Shown piece by piece: positions 46,853 to 64,000 of a DNA stretch of 64,000 nt. Under the pieces are notes generated by a model. That model saw nothing but the letters and a program-made list of their open reading frames with translations. It searched no databases and was not told the origin of the DNA. Position 1 is the stretch's first letter. The number at the start of each line of letters is the position of its first letter. Source of the DNA: Trachythela sp. YZ-2020 (lineage: Eukaryota > Cnidaria > Anthozoa > Malacalcyonacea > Clavulariidae); the NCBI GenBank assembly GCA_016169945.1, contig JADLSH010000114.1, forward strand, positions 2,454,001 to 2,518,000, written 5' to 3'. The translations under genes and the position numbers were made by a program.

Positions 46853-47413
46853 TATCTACACCCCCTCAGGGATGATGTTTCATACGATTTCACAGTTTTG
46901 CCGACAACAGGTTGAGAGCGCGGTGTGAAATAATTAAGACTCTATAATCTTGCGCTGGTAAATCGGAAACAGATCCGGTGAACAATCCACGTGCTAATAT
47001 ATCTGTTAGGTGTATTACAGTTGACAATGGTAAAATAATTTTGGCTAAAAAATTTAGCATTTTTTAAAATCTGTTTCCACGTCTTTCTCCATAATATATG
47101 GAACAAACTTCCGTATATGGAGTGTTTACGACAAAAAAAAAGAGAACGCGAAAGTAGTAGGGAAGGGCCGGTTCTACCCCATTTTTAAAAGTATACAAAG
47201 TATACAAAGTATACTATCCCAAGAGTGTCTATAAAATCCCAAGGCTCGCTAGCGCTCGCGAATTGGGAGCCAAATTTGCAACCCCTTTACAACACCTTCA
47301 CCACGCCATGAACACGAACCTTTAGAGCAAGACTCGCCAGCGCTCGCTTGTGGGTCACGAACACAAACCTTTACTGACACGCACACTTGCACGAAAGACA
47401 CACAATAAGATAG

Positions 47414-47429
47414 TTTAAAGGATCGTATA
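47414..47429 (+). promoter_or_regulatory. Shared promoter block, copy 1
   Basis: TTTAAAGGATCGTATA, 25 bases before the ATG at 47455. The same 16 bases occur exactly before two other genes of the element (49708-49723 and 50833-50848, minus strand). The downstream TATAAAAATTA reads as a TATA box. Confidence 0.8.
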
Positions 47430-47454
47430 AAAATTATATTAATAAAGAGGTAAC

Positions 47455-47841
47455 ATGTCATTCAAAGAATTAAGTGAAGTTAAATTTGAACTCAATGAAG
47501 TATTTACATGGGGAGTGAAGGAAGACAAGTTTAGCGGTTATGTTATTCCAACGATTATGCCTAAAGATGTTGAAGACAAAATCAAAAGTTTAGCATATGA
47601 ACATGGCACACAAACACAACTGTACAACGGGTTGTTGTACTTAAAAACAAAAATGTTATCAGCTAAGCAACAAAGTGAGCTGTTAAATAAAAAACAAATG
47701 AATATCACAATACATTTTAAAATTACAGGTGTATACACAAAAAGCGTTGAGGAAGGTCTTAGCAAATACCTTGTTTTTAAAGTGACTAAGCTAAGAAAAA
47801 TAGGTAAGCCAGAGTCTAATGATGAGTGTCCTGAAGACTAA
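47455..47841 (+). CDS. Polinton small soluble protein, unknown
   Basis: 128 residues, charged, no membrane segment, predicted mostly beta in the middle (QMNITIHFKITGVY, KYLVFKVTKLRK). It is the leftmost gene and has the shared 16-base promoter. It might be a single-strand-DNA-binding protein by size and composition, but no motif shows this. Convergent with the gene at 47902; a stem-loop lies between. Confidence 0.75.
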   Translation: MSFKELSEVKFELNEVFTWGVKEDKFSGYVIPTIMPKDVEDKIKSLAYEHGTQTQLYNGLLYLKTKMLSAKQQSELLNKKQMNITIHFKITGVYTKSVEEGLSKYLVFKVTKLRKIGKPESNDECPED

Positions 47842-52108: not shown

Positions 52109-53668
52109 TTATTTATTAATAGCTTTTTCAGAGATCCATGAGTTGTGTTTGTTGTTATATCCAGACCACTTTACCAACACTTGGCCCTTCCTTTTCTTTA
52201 AAATTTTTTCTATCTCGTACGTGTGTGGATTGTTCACATGACTCATCTCCTCTTCATAAAACTTACCAATAATTGGTTCCGCTTCATTGTCCTTTATCTC
52301 ATACATGTTTGGGTCACCTCTAAAGACACCGCTAACCTTAAACTTTTCCTCTGTAAAGTTTGCCTCGTACCCCTTTTTGAAAATATTTTTATACTTACTT
52401 ATTCTAACGATGTCATCAACTTTAAACTTTGGTATCGGAAACTTACCTAACCCATAACCGTATAGTGTAATCCACACTTGGTTTTTATTTAACTCACTTA
52501 CATCAGCCGGCTTCATTAGTATGCTACTATGCTTGGTGTGGTTATAGTTGTACGTAAGTTTGTTTAACACGTTAATCCAGTTAAAGGTCTCTTCTTTATG
52601 AAAGTACTTCCACATAGATGTTTTTAATGTACGGTTAAATCTTTCAACTATGGCAGCCTTTCTGTCTGAGTTTGTAGAAAAGTAGTTCACATCATGCTCT
52701 TTTAACAAACTTTTAACACCAACGTTGTAGAACTCTTTACCTTCGTCAAACTGTGCGGTTTTTGGATACTGCTCAAACCTTTCCTTAAACTTATTTAGTA
52801 GCTCGCCCACAGCGGCAGTCATGTTTTTAGTATCCTTCCTATAAACTGGTATTGTGAAGGCGTAACGACTTAGAATTTCAACAGCTGTTAGTATCCAATA
52901 GTAACCTTTGTTTTTGTTTTTATACTTCCCCATGTCAACCAAGTCCATCTGTACTTGGTCGGCTAAGTCTTTAACGAACGTTCTTTGAAATTTGTGTTTA
53001 CTTATAACAGGTTTGTGTATTGTGTAGGTGTCTTGAGTTTTTAACCAGTCTTTTACAATCCTACGACTAACAGCTAACCCGGAGTCCTTCGCCTTTTGAT
53101 ACAACCTTTCTATAGACTGAAAGCCTGTGCTTGGGTCGTAGTAGAGCGTGAAACACCTCTCACCGCGCGTGTTAAAATTCATAGACGTGTCTATAATGTC
53201 GCAGTCAATGTAAATGTGAGACAATCCTTGGTTGATGTTAACAACGTTAGGCGAGTTCTCCCAAACAACAGTACCCCCAACGTTGTCATTTATAATTTGC
53301 TTCTTTGGAAAACCAAGCAGCGGAGCGAAATTGTCAAGGTCTAACATATGATTTTTAGACGTTATTTTACACGTGTTGTTGTATGCTATTTTCACTAGCG
53401 TTACATCGTACTCTTTCAGCTTGTCTTTAATCATGTCAAACGTCCAGTAACCCTCTCCGAACATGATCTTTTGACTTTTATTACCAACGCTAACCGCTGC
53501 ACCATACAATATGAAGTCGTTAACATCAGACACAACGTTTTTAAACTTCCAAAAGACCGCCGCGTTCTTTAAAACCATCGTTGACTTGGCGTGCTTGTTT
53601 GAGATGTTAGCGTCAAGATAGAGCTCCTTCTCATTATCCTTTATAAACACTGTTATCTTCTTCTTCAT
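52109..53668 (-). CDS. int: Polinton integrase with chromodomain, fused to an N-terminal structural-like domain
   Basis: 519 residues. From about 176 it is a retroviral-type integrase: N-terminal YYDPSTGFQSIERLY, catalytic core with D242 (VQMDLVDM), D308 (AQFDEGKEF) and E342 (AIVERFNRTLK), a 33-residue D-E spacing, and a C-terminal chromodomain (YEIEKIL...LVKWSGYNNKHNSW, about 484-519). Residues 1-175 are unusual. They carry AVFWKFKN, GYWTFDMIKDKL, YNNTCKI, LLGF, VNINQGLSHIYI and CDIID, which I recall from separately encoded Polinton proteins of penton/minor-capsid type. That part appears to stop abruptly at the integrase start. The integrase inserts the element, giving 6-bp duplications. Divergent from the next gene by 20 bases. 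Confidence 0.88.
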   Translation of the reverse strand: MKKKITVFIKDNEKELYLDANISNKHAKSTMVLKNAAVFWKFKNVVSDVNDFILYGAAVSVGNKSQKIMFGEGYWTFDMIKDKLKEYDVTLVKIAYNNTCKITSKNHMLDLDNFAPLLGFPKKQIINDNVGGTVVWENSPNVVNINQGLSHIYIDCDIIDTSMNFNTRGERCFTLYYDPSTGFQSIERLYQKAKDSGLAVSRRIVKDWLKTQDTYTIHKPVISKHKFQRTFVKDLADQVQMDLVDMGKYKNKNKGYYWILTAVEILSRYAFTIPVYRKDTKNMTAAVGELLNKFKERFEQYPKTAQFDEGKEFYNVGVKSLLKEHDVNYFSTNSDRKAAIVERFNRTLKTSMWKYFHKEETFNWINVLNKLTYNYNHTKHSSILMKPADVSELNKNQVWITLYGYGLGKFPIPKFKVDDIVRISKYKNIFKKGYEANFTEEKFKVSGVFRGDPNMYEIKDNEAEPIIGKFYEEEMSHVNNPHTYEIEKILKKRKGQVLVKWSGYNNKHNSWISEKAINK

Positions 53669-57277: not shown

Positions 57278-57643
57278 ATGAGTTTGACGTTAGAAACACC
57301 ATTTAACATGATAATAATTGGAATGACTGGGTGTGGTAAGACCTACTACCTCCTTAAGATGCTAGAGAGTGAGTACAAGGATCACTTTGAGTATATCTTT
57401 TTAATTTGTCCAACCTACTTATACAACCAAACGTATCAAAATTGGAAGTATAAAAACGATGACAAGTTTTTTCCTATACCGTGTGAGCAAGACGATGTGG
57501 AGGCTTTTTTAAAGTACATCACTAAGATGTATAGTGGTACAAATAGTCTTATCATCCTAGATGACTGTGCTAGTAGTCAGTCAGTTAAAAATAGAACGAG
57601 TGAGATGGTAAGACTTGCCTTCTCCGCAAGACATTATAAGTAG
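57278..57643 (+). pseudogene. Packaging ATPase, N-terminal part, interrupted by a transposon
   Basis: 121 residues then a stop made by inserted DNA. Walker A GMTGCGKTYY near the N-terminus (MIIIGMTGCGKT) and Walker B SLIILDDCA identify an A32/FtsK-HerA-type genome-packaging ATPase of the Polinton/NCLDV group. The reading is normal up to ARHY; the last codon and the stop come from the left end of the element at 57639. The rest of the gene is found at 63844-64000. Confidence 0.88.
57633..57638. repeat. Target duplication ATTATA (left)
   Basis: Identical to 63842-63847. Six-base duplications are the Polinton hallmark. Confidence 0.93.
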
Positions 57644-57680
57644 ATGTGCCCCCCCCATCCAGCAGAATTTTCCCGCCATA

Positions 57681-57842
57681 TGACGTCAGCATTTTGAGGA
57701 TTTTTGCGTAGATACGCGTAGATACATGTAGATACATGTGGATATGCGTAGATACGCGTAGATACATGTAGATACACCCCATCCAGCAGAATTTTCCCGC
57801 CATATGACGTCAGCATTTTGAGGATCTCGCCATATGACGTCA
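57681..57842. promoter_or_regulatory. Three CRE-type palindromes TGACGTCA
   Basis: TGACGTCA at 57681-57688, 57805-57812 and 57835-57842, each in CATATGACGTCA. The surrounding block CCATCCAGCAGAATTTTCCC to GTCAGCATTTTGAGGA is itself duplicated (57656-57702, 57780-57824). TGACGTCA is the ATF/CREB consensus. The same sites occur in the right repeat. A TATA box follows at 58099, 50 bases before the ATG at 58151. Confidence 0.7.
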
Positions 57843-58045
57843 TTATGCGTAGATACGCGTAGATACTCAGGGGTCGGACGTCTACGAAGACATGTATATA
57901 CATGCGGATATGCGTAGATACGCGTAGATACATGTATATACATGTGGATATGCGTAGATACGCGTAGATACATGTAGATGCATACGGATATGCGTAGATA
58001 CGCGTAGATACATGTAGATGCATGCGTAGATACGCGTATCTACGC
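57703..58045. repeat. Subterminal 10-bp repeats (GTAGATACGC / GTAGATACAT / GTGGATATGC)
   Basis: Three related decamers alternate in two blocks (57706-57775 and 57846-58045). The 10-base period puts each unit on the same face of the helix. Mirror copy at 63434-63774. The reverse frames this creates (YLRVSTHI...) are not genes. Confidence 0.9.
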
Positions 58046-58098
58046 GTACGTTCAACGACGTGTATCCGGTTTTATTCAAGATGACGTAATGACATGCC

Positions 58099-58107
58099 TA
58101 TAAAAAA
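58099..58107 (+). promoter_or_regulatory. TATA box before gene 58151
   Basis: TATAAAAAA about 50 bases upstream of the ATG, downstream of the CRE-like sites. Confidence 0.65.
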
Positions 58108-58150
58108 ACGTCGCGCTTTTATTCAGTGATCATTACTAGCTAAGTTTGAA

Positions 58151-58630
58151 ATGAGTTTCTCACAAAATTTCGAGCAGTCGAACTGGGCTAACAGTGTTCA
58201 TGCAGACGAAGTTTCGTCCGTTGATTATAAAAAACTTTTCAGTTTGTTAGAGGCTATATATGCAGAGGCTGTTTTTGACGAAGTTTGTAAGCTAAGTAAG
58301 GAAAGATGCTGTGGTTGTGAGTACGATCACCCAAGTCAACGCCAGCATGACTGTCTTATGTTATCTGAACAGGAGAGATGGCAATCGTATGGCTTGGAGG
58401 CCATAGATCGAGTAATAAATAAACGTATGGTCTGGAGAGAATTTGTCGAAGCTATTAGAGTGATGAAACTACAGTACCATAAAGATGTTCGTGGGCATTT
58501 TGAAAGTCTAGAGAGAAGTCCTGATTCAACGTTTGTTTATTCATTGATGGACCTTCGTGAAAACACTGAGGATCGTGAGTTTGAGTCTATTTTGAGCTAT
58601 CTTTCGTATTGGAGAGAGGACAGACTTTGA
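58151..58630 (+). CDS. Cys/His-motif protein of nested element (intact copy)
   Basis: 159 residues. The central block CCGCEYDHPSQRQHDCLM holds a C-x2-C..H..H-x-C set that likely binds zinc. I recall the (C)xGCxxDHPSQxxHxCLM signature from many uncharacterised Polinton-linked proteins in cnidarians. The rest is helical. The gene lies wholly in the left inverted repeat, so the element carries two copies. The right copy has two frameshifts, making this the only complete one. Function unknown. Confidence 0.82.
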   Translation: MSFSQNFEQSNWANSVHADEVSSVDYKKLFSLLEAIYAEAVFDEVCKLSKERCCGCEYDHPSQRQHDCLMLSEQERWQSYGLEAIDRVINKRMVWREFVEAIRVMKLQYHKDVRGHFESLERSPDSTFVYSLMDLRENTEDREFESILSYLSYWREDRL

Positions 58631-59631
58631 AATAAATTATCTTGGAGCGACTTTGGGCGAGATCATTGACGTCAGGGAAGCGTACAAGACACAAAAAACG
58701 GCTCTTTTAAGAGCCACCAAATATACTAAAAGAACTAAACGAGTTTCGTGTTTACATATTTATAGTATGCACTGATCACATTTCGCTTAGCGTCAATACC
58801 CAACACATGGACAGATCAAATGACAAATCAGAAATGTATAGTGTACACTGAACACATTTTGCTGAATATCAATACTTTTCGTATGAAATTCTTCGATAAT
58901 CACTCATTTATCAAACCAATAGTCATTTTCCAGTGCCTAAGTTTTATTACTAGCTTTACTAGCTTAGCTGTGAGACACAAAGGATTTGAATAATTTTTGA
59001 CAGCTAATTGGAATATAAAATAATGATTTCCGACTTAGCAGCATGAGTCTAAGTAAAACATTTTGATCTACATGCACACATATTTTGTTAGTCAGAAACT
59101 AATCCTTAAAATATACACCTAGTTAGCACTGATAAGACCTTTTTATTATGACATTACAAAATCGTCTCTCTCTCTCCTTTTGCGATAAAAATGTGGACAG
59201 TTTGTGAGGCACTTATTGCTATAGCGATGTTTACTATAGATGCTTACTGCATGATGTTTACTTTGGCATGCTGTGTTCAATGAGGCGTGCGCGCATAAAT
59301 TTAGGTTGATCTATGCACACATATTTTGTTAGTCATTGACAATACTCTTGTTGAGGTGACGAAAGTTTTAGAGCTTCAGTGGGATAAATACGTGTTTGAA
59401 TATTGGAATCCATAGGGCGAAAAAGGGGGTAACGCGAACGCGAACACTGATTTTAAAAGTAAATTATTGTTGCTCGCTTTGTTTGGCTGGATGCATATAT
59501 TAACGCACAGATTAACGTTTGTAACAAATTTATTTCTTAAGTATAACAATTAATCACACAAATGCATATAATTCTTAAACATATTGTCTTGCTTTATTGC
59601 TCGTTAGCCATGGTTTCTCTAACAAAAGCTC
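58631..59631. other. Non-coding part of left inverted repeat
   Basis: No gene. Contains internal near-repeats, for example GCACACATATTTTGTTAGTC at about 59072 and 59313, each followed by diverged sequence. Confidence 0.6.
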
Positions 59632-59658
59632 CAACCGCATTAAACCGTTTGACTGTGT

Positions 59659-60225
59659 TTAATCATCGCTTTCTGCGTCATCTTCCTCATCAAAATCGTA
59701 ATCCTTTAAAAGCCTTCTTATAAGAAACTTTCTCTTATCAACAGCTGCTTCCAAAGCTTCTTCTGGATCAAAGTCATCGTTTTCGACAAGTGTTTCCTTT
59801 GTCTGCATTATTTTCTCATGGACTGGATCTCTCTTCAGTTGTCTCATCCACAGGAGACGTTGTATATAAATATTTTCAAGTTCCTTTTGGAGTTCAGGCA
59901 GAATATTGGTGTGAGCTTTGTCGGTAGCAGATTGCTCATCAAGACCGCTGTTTACAAGGCTCTCTTTCATTTCCTCAAAAGCTGTATTACTTCTTTCCTT
60001 TGCTTCTTCTATCATTGGTATCCAAGGATCCATTTCTTCTGCTTCTTCAGTTTCTGACTCATTATCAGACCCATGAGTTGAAGTTGTCGAAACATCGTCT
60101 TCGGAATCCATTATCTGACTTTCTGTTTCTGACATCTCTTGTTCGCGTAGTGGACAGTATTCCTTTTCGTGTCTGCGTAGATTATAACCACGGCTAAATT
60201 GTTTTCCGCAAAATTTGCAGCTCAT
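59659..60225 (-). CDS. C2H2 zinc-finger protein of nested element
   Basis: 188 residues. One classical N-terminal finger (CKFCGKQFSRGYNLRRHEKEYC; the last ligand is Cys, C2HC type), an acidic Ser-rich linker, and a helical domain with FDPEEALEAAVDKRKFLIRR near the acidic C-terminus. This combination is one I recall from cnidarian Polinton gene sets. Probably a DNA-binding regulator. It is divergent from the ATPase gene, with a minisatellite between them. Confidence 0.8.
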   Translation of the reverse strand: MSCKFCGKQFSRGYNLRRHEKEYCPLREQEMSETESQIMDSEDDVSTTSTHGSDNESETEEAEEMDPWIPMIEEAKERSNTAFEEMKESLVNSGLDEQSATDKAHTNILPELQKELENIYIQRLLWMRQLKRDPVHEKIMQTKETLVENDDFDPEEALEAAVDKRKFLIRRLLKDYDFDEEDDAESDD

Positions 60226-60289
60226 TCCGTTACCACTAACTGCCCAGAAATGACTTTCTTTTCAGCAGCATGGCACTTTTATGAGCAGA

Positions 60290-60535
60290 TGCAGGGACTA
60301 GCCCCTACAGAACCCCAGGGAACCCTACAGAACCCCGAGAGAACCCTACAGAACCCCGAGAGAACCCCTACAGAACCCCGAGAGAACCCCTACAGAACCC
60401 CGAGAGAACCCCTACAGAACCCCGAGAGAACCCCTACAGAACCCCGAGAGAACCCCTACAGAACCCCGAGAGAACCCCTACAGAACCCCGAGAGAACCCC
60501 TACAGAACCCCGAGGGAACCCCCAGGGAACCGCTA
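60290..60535. repeat. 22-bp minisatellite (AGAACCCCTACAGAACCCCG)n
   Basis: About ten copies of a 22-base unit, with shortened copies at both edges, located between the divergent C2H2 and ATPase starts. The open frame through it (PREPLQNPERTPTE units) is a by-product. Confidence 0.9.
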
Positions 60536-60626
60536 CAGAGTTCCCCCAGAACCCTTGCGACCCCTTAAAGCATTGATATATAGAACTGAATTTATATATA
60601 AACTTGATTCATTTGCGGGAGCAATC

Positions 60627-61898
60627 ATGCCAAGAAGATTTCCTCGGACCTGTCCGACATGCGGCCGACCTAATTTAAAGAACATCAGTACACATCTTTC
60701 ACAAGTTCACGGCTTACAATCCAAGGAGAGACAACAGGTTCTTCAGCAAGCCCAGGTGTCATCATGGCAATATCAATCTCCATATCCGGACCCCGAAAAG
60801 CCAGGAGAAAAACGTGTAAGCCGAAGTGCACACTCATTGCCAGCTAAGAAACCAAAAGCAGCACAAGCTAAAGCATCTTTGACTATCAAACCCTATCCGG
60901 ATTTCAACCTCCGCCATAAATTCTCACTTTTGGTTGTGGGTCCGAGTCAAAGTGGAAAAACATATTTTGTCCAACAAATTTTGGAAAACAATCGTGTCGT
61001 GTACGAAGAGGAAAAAAGTATTCGCATTTTTTGGTACTACAACCAGTGGCAAGAATGTTATGACGTCTTGAAAAAGTCTCTCGGAAAAAGCATCCGGTTT
61101 GAGAGAGGTGTGCCCGAACTGTCTGAGAACATGAGCGAGATTGATACGCGGTACAACAACATCATCATCCTGGACGATTTGATGGCTGAAGCGACAGACA
61201 GTCCTGTGGTATCTCGATTGTTTACCCAAGGCCGCCATCGAAACGCGAGCGTTATCTTATTGCTGCAAAACATGTTTCCAAAGGGGAAATATAATACGGA
61301 TATCAGCCGAAATGCCCAATATCTGGCTCTCTTCCGAAGTCCAAGCGATAGGAAACAAATTGGTATTGTTGGAGAACGTATGTTTGATAAGAACAGAATC
61401 CATTTTATGAACGCTTATTACAAAGAGACCGAAAAACCGTTTGGATACTTATTGGTGGATAACAAGCCTGACACACCAACCGATAAGCAAGTTCTTGGAG
61501 ACCTATTTGGCGACTGCCATGTTTATCCCTTCACCACCCAAACTAAAGTGACTACACCCACACCGGTTTCTGGCGTCGAAACCAAGCCTGGAAGAAAACA
61601 ACCTAAACATCATCGGTATATTACCTGGTCGGATGCAACTATCCCCGAGTGGCTAAAATACACCGACAAAGCCGATACCGTTCGTGTCATTCCCAAAGGA
61701 TATGCTATCATAGAGATGTATAAATCGTCGCGCAATAGTGTTGATCCTAGCCGTCCGGGTGTCTACAGCAACGGCGAACATTATTGGCCTGTCAAAATAA
61801 GGCACCAATCTACAGGCCATATAAAATGGGTGAATCTGCACGAAGACGAGGCTACGGTCCGAGCTTTTGTTAGAGAAACCATGGCTAACGAGCAATAA
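60627..61898 (+). CDS. P-loop ATPase with N-terminal zinc finger (nested element)
   Basis: Starting at MPRRFPRTCPTC (60627; an earlier in-frame ATG at 60555 is less likely, being in the minisatellite edge). Order: zinc-finger-like CPTCGRPNLKNISTHLSQVH, basic linker, Walker A VVGPSQSGKTYF, IFWYYNQWQECYDVL, Walker B NNIIILDDLM, LFTQGRHRNASVILLLQNMF, ISRNAQYLALFRSPSDRKQIG, FGYLLVDNKPDTPTDKQ, and a C-terminal domain of ~110 residues with ITWSDATIPEWLKY. The blocks match ATPases of a different Polinton lineage than the outer one, presumed to package DNA. The last 12 codons lie within the right inverted repeat. Confidence 0.85.
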   Translation: MPRRFPRTCPTCGRPNLKNISTHLSQVHGLQSKERQQVLQQAQVSSWQYQSPYPDPEKPGEKRVSRSAHSLPAKKPKAAQAKASLTIKPYPDFNLRHKFSLLVVGPSQSGKTYFVQQILENNRVVYEEEKSIRIFWYYNQWQECYDVLKKSLGKSIRFERGVPELSENMSEIDTRYNNIIILDDLMAEATDSPVVSRLFTQGRHRNASVILLLQNMFPKGKYNTDISRNAQYLALFRSPSDRKQIGIVGERMFDKNRIHFMNAYYKETEKPFGYLLVDNKPDTPTDKQVLGDLFGDCHVYPFTTQTKVTTPTPVSGVETKPGRKQPKHHRYITWSDATIPEWLKYTDKADTVRVIPKGYAIIEMYKSSRNSVDPSRPGVYSNGEHYWPVKIRHQSTGHIKWVNLHEDEATVRAFVRETMANEQ

Positions 61899-62870
61899 AG
61901 CAAGACAATATGTTTAAGAATTATATGCATTTGTGTGATTAATTGTTATACTTAAGAAATAATTTGTTACAAACGTTAATCTGTGCGTTAATATATGCAT
62001 CCAGCCAAACAAAGCGAGCAACAATAATTTACTTTTAAAATCAGTGTTCGCGTTCGCGTTACCCCCTTTTTCGCCCTATGGATTCCAATATTCAAACACG
62101 TATTTATCCCACTGAAGCTCTAAAACTTTCGTCACCTCAACAAGAGTATTGTCAATGACTAACAAAATATGTGTGCATAGATCAACCTAAATTTATGCGC
62201 GCACGCCTCATTGAACACAGCATGCCAAAGTAAACATCATGCAGTAAGCATCTATAGTAAACATCGCTATAGCAATAAGTGCCTCACAAACTGTCCACAT
62301 CTTTATCGCAAAAGGAGAGAGAGAGACGATTTTGTAATGTCATAATAAAAGGTCTTATCAGTGCTAACTAGGTGTATATTTTAAGGATTAGTTTCTGACT
62401 AACAAAATATGTGTGCATGTAGATCAAAATGTTTTACTTAGACTCATGCTGCTAAGTCAAATCATTATTTTATATTCCAATTAGCTGTCAAAATTATTCA
62501 AATCCTTTGTGTCTCACAGCTAAGCTAGTAAAGCTAGTAATAAAACTTAGGCCCTGGAAAATGACTATTGGTTTGATAAATGAGTGATTATCGAAGAATT
62601 TCATACGAAAGTATTGATATTCAGCAAAATGTGTTCAGTGTACACTATACATTTCTGATTTGTCATTTGATCTGTCCATGTGTTGGGTATTGACGCTAAG
62701 CGAAATGTGATCAGTGCATACTATCAATATGTAAACACGAAACTCGTTTAGTTCTTTTAGTATATTTGGTGGCTCTTAAAGAGCCGTTTTTGTGTCTTGT
62801 ACGCTTCCCTGACGTCAATGATCTCGCCCAAAGTCGCTCCAAGATAATTTATTTCAAAGTCTGTCCTCTC
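61899..62870. other. Non-coding part of right inverted repeat
   Basis: Mirror of 58631-59593; no gene. Confidence 0.6.
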
Positions 62871-63331
62871 TCAATACGAAAGATAGCTCAAAATAGACTC
62901 AAACTCACGATCCTCAGTGTTTTCACGAAGGTCCATCAATGAATAAACAAACGTTGAATCAGGACTTCTCTCTAGACTTTCAAAATGCCCACGAACATCT
63001 TTATGGTACTGTAGTTTCATCACTCTAATAGCTTCGACAAATTCTCTCCAGACCATACGTTTATTTATTACTCGATCTATGGCCTCCAAGCCATACGATT
63101 GCCATCTCTCCTGTTCAGATAACATAAGACAGTCATGCTGGCGTTGACTTGGGTGATCGTACTCACAACCACAGCATCTTTCCTTACTTAGCTTACAAAC
63201 TTCGTCAAAAACAGCCTCTGCATATATAGCCTCTAACAAACTGAAAAGTTTTTTATAATCAACGGACGAAACTTCGTCTGCATGAACACTGTTAGCCCAG
63301 TTCGACTGCTCGAAATTTTGTGAAACTCATT
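62852..63331 (-). pseudogene. Second copy of the Cys/His-motif gene, frameshifted
   Basis: Compared with 58151-58630, two bases are missing just after the ATG (GAGTTTC|ACAAAA) and one base near the end (TATTG|AGAGAGG), giving an early shift and a stop after YLSY. The core with DHPSQRQHDCLM is unchanged. An internal ATG at 63239 could still give a 122-residue product. Confidence 0.85.
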
Positions 63332-63841
63332 TCAAACTTAGCTAGTAATGATCACTGAATAAAAGCGCGACGTTTTTTTATAGGCATGTCATTACGTCAT
63401 CTTGAATAAAACCGGATACACGTCGTTGAACGTACGCGTAGATACGCGTATCTACGCATGCATCTACATGTATCTACGCGTATCTACGCATATCCGTATG
63501 CATCTACATGTATCTACGCGTATCTACGCATATCCACATGTATATACATGTATCTACGCGTATCTACGCATATCCGCATGTATATACATGTCTTCGTAGA
63601 CGTCCGACCCCTGAGTATCTACGCGTATCTACGCATAATGACGTCATATGGCGAGATCCTCAAAATGCTGACGTCATATGGCGGGAAAATTCTGCTGGAT
63701 GGGGTGTATCTACATGTATCTACGCGTATCTACGCATATCCACATGTATCTACATGTATCTACGCGTATCTACGCAAAAATCCTCAAAATGCTGACGTCA
63801 TATGGCGGGAAAATTCTGCTGGATGGGGGGGCACATCTACT

Positions 63842-63847
63842 ATTATA
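63842..63847. repeat. Target duplication ATTATA (right)
   Basis: Matches 57633-57638. Confidence 0.93.
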
Positions 63848-64000
63848 ACCTAAGCACAATTGTGATAACACAGCAGCTAACAAGTATAACAAAACCTTAT
63901 AGAGATAATACATCTAAAATGGTTACGTTCTACAACCCAACTAGAAAGGACATGAGTTATTTCTTAGAAGAGTCTCTCCACGTTACTAAGGACCAAGAGC
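63844..64000 (+). pseudogene. Packaging ATPase, continuation after the nested element (runs off window)
   Basis: Directly after the right end, the frame set by the target duplication is open to the window edge and encodes VITQQLTSITKP and FYNPTRKDM, blocks that follow the Walker B region in A32-type ATPases (the QQ before LT is the sensor-like motif). So the outer ATPase gene was complete before the insertion. The remainder lies outside. Confidence 0.85.

Follow-up and report, generated by a model that had tools for sequence, protein, structure and literature searches.

Polintons or Mavericks (polintoviruses) are virus-like transposons with 5'-AGT ends, 6-bp target-site duplications, inverted repeats and a packaging ATPase of the A32/FtsK-like type. 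They are given as 15-20 kb long in PMC4028283, which also assigns their ATPase to the genome-packaging family found in viruses that have double jelly-roll capsids. Maverick ends have been published as (AGT)2//(ACT)2, in a report according to which Maverick particles had not been observed so far (PMC8097293). In the cnidarian Trachythela sp. YZ-2020 we analysed a stretch of 64,000 nucleotides, hereafter the window (C147:2454001-2518000, C147 being contig JADLSH010000114.1), and searched the genome from which it comes (578 Mb, 396 contigs). The window holds a 6,203-bp insert (57639-63841) with ends AGTAG..CTACT and inverted repeats of about 2.0 kb, which interrupts the packaging ATPase gene of a Polinton. 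The insert and its relatives in the genome resemble Polintons in ends, duplications, inverted repeats and ATPase, but measure 2.8-6.3 kb and are without a recognised integrase, polymerase or capsid gene. Like miniature inverted-repeat transposable elements and deletion derivatives of DNA transposons, they have ends in common with autonomous elements and would need mobilisation in trans; unlike these, they keep two to three genes apparently under purifying selection, including one for a packaging-type ATPase. On balance we lean, with moderate confidence, towards the reading that they are non-autonomous satellites of Polintons, moved in trans, whose own ATPase would load their DNA into Polinton capsids.

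The ends of the insert and the perfect 6-base duplication ATTATA, both proposed in the initial annotation of the window, were confirmed to base level, and the two repeat arms of the insert are 99.15% identical. The interrupted Polinton is 17.6 kb long (23.85 kb including the insert), runs from window position 47153 to C147:2525003, and has its own AGTAGTAG ends and a duplication of its own, CGCGAA. Its ATPase frame had been described as open and family-like on both sides of the insert. This description stood for the left flank, which is open and matches Pox_A32 (Table 1), and in part for the right one, where 83 codons are open and the phase relative to the duplication is identical, but where the first 52 codons alone gave no Pfam family match and an alignment with the insert's ATPase (score 35) did not rise above shuffled sequences (maximum 51). 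Position, phase and reading by eye lead us to take the right flank as the remainder of the host ATPase gene. The analysis supports the annotated arrangement, a discrete element that carries genes but no integrase, has ends of the Polinton type and splits a Polinton's packaging gene.

A DNA search of the genome with the insert gave 233 matches (best 39 of 1768 candidates scored), among them full-length copies with the same ends on contigs C392 and C108, flanked by other 6-bp duplications (CCTGTC and CGCCGC, respectively). The loci examined were high-scoring DNA matches plus two divergent picks from a protein search, and hence a non-random sample. At 21 of 27 loci, the window insertion included, a scan that allowed one mismatch at most found a complete element whose 6-bp duplication is perfect; the two divergent loci, with ATPases of 71-75% identity and up to two mismatches allowed, likewise hold complete short elements (TACAAG, TGCAGT). 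This makes 23 duplication-flanked family elements at 29 loci, all counted duplications being perfect. The scan yielded none at L010, L016, L020, L022, L028 and L030. Two of these six, L010 and L028, could be delimited by their repeats and were kept in a set of 23 elements used for comparison, which span 2,839-6,321 bp, while the other four were dropped; L010 has a perfect CGCGTA duplication if its right end is taken as AGTAGTAG, and the duplication of L028 is imperfect. Internal deletion after insertion is ruled out by the diversity of the family elsewhere and by the full-length copies, which occupy different sites and have different duplications. The insert is therefore a discrete mobile unit with many copies, and it is non-autonomous, having its own duplications and no recognised transposase gene. 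The elements at L018 and L025 end in ACTACG..CGTAGT rather than AGTAG..CTACT, with perfect 6-bp duplications.

The claim that the insert carries an ATPase of its own, clearly different from that of its host, was borne out: its alignment with the left piece of the host gene scored 63, while 200 shuffles reached 48 at most, and the left piece in turn found the satellite ATPase of locus L034 (E = 1.5e-4, in a search limited to that locus). By these scores the two ATPases, that of the insert and the interrupted one, are distantly related. The insert's ATPase matches the PHROG terminase large subunit (2.3e-7) and consists of an A32 core with an N-terminal finger and a C-terminal extension. The second gene, divergent from the first, encodes a protein whose zf-C2H2 match (20.4 bits) lies under the Pfam cut-off of 25.2. 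A third open reading frame (ORF), within the terminal inverted repeat (TIR), gave no match in a Pfam scan; its right-arm copy is shorter, 84 aa from the ATG. Between the two divergent genes lies a minisatellite-like stretch (about 60310-60550) with units like AGAACCCCTACAGAACCCCG, whose ORFs recur in 8 of the 23 elements. A viral contig collection searched with the satellite ATPase, its alignment and a 408-aa ORF of the host gave no relative; a match of the TIR ORF in a phage contig covered 8 residues only and was taken for chance. A PDB search with the ATPase alignment reached a best E of 0.07, no usable relative, and structure models (mean pLDDT 36.3 and 28.7) were of too low quality to search for related folds.

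As the initial annotation had stated, the ORFs of the window element include no integrase, polymerase or capsid gene recognised in a Pfam scan. Across the 23 elements, 66 of the 180 ORFs of at least 60 aa match the ATPase, the C2H2 protein or the TIR ORF; some elements carry an ORF in their repeats besides the common ATPase and zinc-finger genes. The other clusters reaching 90 aa comprise repeat-array ORFs, the minisatellite, two that are antisense to the ATPase by coordinates, and one ORF of a single element. For the elements besides that of the window, these leftover ORFs were clustered and not scanned individually against Pfam. No rve integrase gene was seen in the window element or among the ORF clusters of the set, no ORF has the size of a protein-primed polymerase B (leftover clusters reach at most 164 aa), and by size and clustering, not structure, the leftover conserved ORFs offer no candidate for a capsid or protease gene.

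A protein search found at least 99 ATPase loci in 100 match rows (best 99 of 1914 candidates scored), of which 78 rows, counted by eye, are without internal stop, and the ATPase is open over at least 400 aa at 18 of the 27 loci. Ratios of dN/dS were calculated by NG86, with medians from pairs with dS above 0.05, for ATPases of at least 400 aa (18 of 37 ORFs), C2H2 proteins of at least 150 aa (25 of 26) and TIR ORFs of at least 115 aa (10 of 14). The medians were 0.29 for the whole ATPase gene (18 sequences, 133 pairs), 0.35 for the C2H2 gene (25 sequences, 267 pairs) and 0.19 for the TIR ORF (10 sequences, 25 pairs), with no pair at or above 1 in any of these sets; for the ATPase core (alignment A1, 15 of the 18 open ATPases) the median was 0.18 and the maximum 0.70 (88 of 105 pairs). 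Since the pairs are non-independent and recombination is present, we read these values as indications of purifying selection on all three genes, which concern the genes and not their role. The ATPases of the window element and of L012 are 96% identical in the core and 37% in the N-terminal finger domain, and this finger appears to be exchanged between members of the family. Residues 1-83 of A1 show several finger types on a near-constant core, as if swapped by recombination. By eye, finger types do not map cleanly on repeat types, and we therefore make no claim of matching between them. Over the first 60 bases of the repeats, the two arms of an element match each other no less closely than they match any other element in 20 of 23 elements, and more closely in 16; paired arms thus evolve together, as expected if replication copies one end from the other.

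The AGTAG ends and 6-bp duplications of the family match those of the host Polinton and of published Mavericks, and helpers are plausible because the genome holds at least 83 places with an integrase related to that of the host, 108 of 121 match rows being free of stops. From this we infer that integration, and probably also replication, takes place in trans. Mobilisation by Polinton enzymes seems likely: Polinton integrases supplied in trans would recognise the AGTAG ends, and the protein-primed polymerase of the Polinton would copy the satellite DNA, so that both repeats of a copy would stay alike. That a packaging-type ATPase is retained suggests that the DNA is loaded into Polinton capsids. 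In this boldest step, a plausible hijack of packaging, the satellite's A32-type ATPase and C2H2 protein would load satellite DNA in place of the helper genome. More tentatively, and with less than moderate confidence, we picture diverse and abundant satellites that may parasitise Polinton virions, borrowing integrase, polymerase and capsid and contributing a packaging motor with exchangeable DNA-recognition fingers.

Several points weigh against the satellite reading. The plausibility of helpers derives from integrase matches, whose surroundings were read at the host copy, one of the 83; no helper with ends matching beyond AGTAG was identified, and capsid-bearing helpers are assumed. The 1815 of 1914 candidates left unscored could include an autonomous element with a satellite ATPase, and the low dN/dS could be inherited from such a hidden source. 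The family is described here from genome sequence.

An alternative explanation is that the elements are ordinary non-autonomous derivatives of an autonomous Polinton lineage that lost genes, with the ATPase as a passenger conserved by descent from a selected source. We consider this unlikely, and yet the most serious of the alternatives. Non-autonomous derivatives are described as common among transposons (PMC6431247), the ATPase loci scored were the best 99 of 1914 candidates, and broken ATPases do exist, with stops in 22 of 100 match rows and six in L003 alone. A random passenger would nevertheless be expected to disappear in some lineages, whereas elements with ATPases 71-100% identical are all short where read, and their repeats differ while the two core genes stay constant. 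That two of 99 ATPase loci lie near a listed integrase also argues against this explanation.

A less probable alternative keeps the Polinton integrase and gives the ATPase and finger protein a part in nuclear replication, excision or integration, so that the element would never enter a particle. It draws on the finger domain and C-terminal extension that the ATPase has beyond its A32 core, and the present data, being sequences, would fit it too. We think it rather improbable, since both Pfam and PHROG point to packaging ATPases, and a genome-packaging family is also where the Polinton ATPase has been placed (PMC4028283). That an unrelated DDE transposase, happening to make 6-bp duplications, moves the element is very improbable; the ends of L018 and L025, with ACTACG in place of AGTAG, would fit it, but AGTAG and 6-bp duplications are common to the host Polinton. 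An assembly chimera at the junctions, which are known from the assembly, was rejected as hardly credible, because the perfect duplication sits exactly at the repeat ends, the frame phase is kept and the same unit occurs with other duplications at other sites.

A preference of the family for landing in Polintons was not supported. Among the at least 99 ATPase loci and at least 83 integrase places listed, two of 99 loci lie within 25 kb of an integrase, against 0.7 expected: the window insertion, at 8.5 kb, and another at 23.7 kb. Thirteen proteins of the host Polinton found no match in the flanks of 26 other loci (0 of 26; flanks mostly 1.5-3.5 kb per side). General targeting of Polintons is therefore unsupported, and the insertion into a packaging gene looks incidental, one among many elsewhere. 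Within the satellite reading, disruption of the window Polinton's packaging gene would likewise be one insertion among many and not a targeting strategy. L012 (L012/L037, approximately C155:4811986-4822676) sits within a decayed inverted-repeat element, largely a palindrome, in which there are pieces related to the ATPase finger and the C2H2 protein of the family, and for which no clean right end and no duplication was found; L009 has a THAP ORF on one side and a DDE_Tnp_4 ORF on the other. Insertions of the family therefore also occur within or next to other mobile elements.

Phage-inducible chromosomal islands (PICIs) carry a small terminase subunit, and the gene content of transpovirons differs from that of the satellites described here. 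If the satellite reading is right, PICIs as presented in PMC6739421 are alike in being small integrated elements that redirect helper packaging with a packaging gene of their own; unlike these bacterial elements, the satellites carry an ATPase motor and no integrase. Transpovirons, in the description of PMC7031253, are also small, linear elements (about 7 kb) that spread with a virophage and are replicated by a giant virus, but they are episomes of protist viruses whereas the satellites are chromosomal. In the openly licensed literature we found no title that concerns Polinton satellites with a packaging ATPase, and none of the phrases sought for miniature or non-autonomous forms of Polintons or Mavericks; subscription papers and Repbase, which may name them, were outside this scope. 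An ATPase kept by selection in elements without other viral genes would be hard to explain unless packaging occurs. If the satellite reading is true, a satellite level would be added to virus-like transposons, a eukaryotic counterpart of phage satellites, and the spread of satellites would be indirect evidence that Polintons form genuine particles in this host, or did so until recently. Through this family, whether Polinton virions exist can be tested in genomes and in particle DNA.

Table 1. Features of the insert and of the interrupted Polinton (window coordinates unless a contig is named).
Feature	Position	Strand	Remarks
Left target-site duplication, ATTATA	57633..57638	.	perfect
Right target-site duplication, ATTATA	63842..63847	.	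perfect
Left terminal inverted repeat of insert	57639..59637	+	starts AGTAGATGTG
Right terminal inverted repeat of insert	61855..63841	-	ends CACATCTACT
Cys-rich TIR ORF, 159 aa	58151..58630	+	within left repeat; dN/dS median 0.19
C2H2 protein, 188 aa, N-terminal finger	59659..60225	-	zf-C2H2, E 0.00066
A32-type packaging ATPase, 423 aa	60627..61898	+	Pox_A32, 1.9e-7
Interrupted host packaging ATPase, left piece (open frame)	57278..57640	+	Pox_A32, E 5.1e-12
Interrupted host ATPase frame, right piece	63842..64000	+	continues past window end
Host Polinton left inverted repeat	47153..47502	+	starts AGTAGTAGGG; repeats of ~350 bp, right one ends C147:2525003
Host Polinton integrase (rve + chromodomain)	52109..53668	-	rve 2e-8, Chromo 3.5e-6

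The host Polinton encodes, besides its integrase and A32-type ATPase, several unplaced ORFs, of which those of 408 and 491 aa gave no Pfam match. Its integrase is 519 aa long, while open frames of about 600-630 aa occur in many relatives; the matches of many of these fall into two segments, with additional sequence between about residues 170 and 186 of the query, and an internal part may have been lost from the host copy. Because its integrase is shorter than those of many relatives, it is doubtful that this Polinton was functional when hit. Two neighbouring ORFs of 1207 and 207 aa lie on one strand in different frames (L033:2026-6190, C147:2520026-2524190). Neither matched a polymerase profile, and the longer one found no PDB chain. 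From sequence motifs, unconfirmed by profile or PDB searches, we take the 1207-aa ORF to be polymerase B, and the two ORFs are presumably parts of one such gene, in which case the host may be decayed there too. A 90-aa collagen-like ORF (L033:1175-1447) matches Collagen at 1.9e-5, with 24.7 bits, under the cut-off of 27.2.

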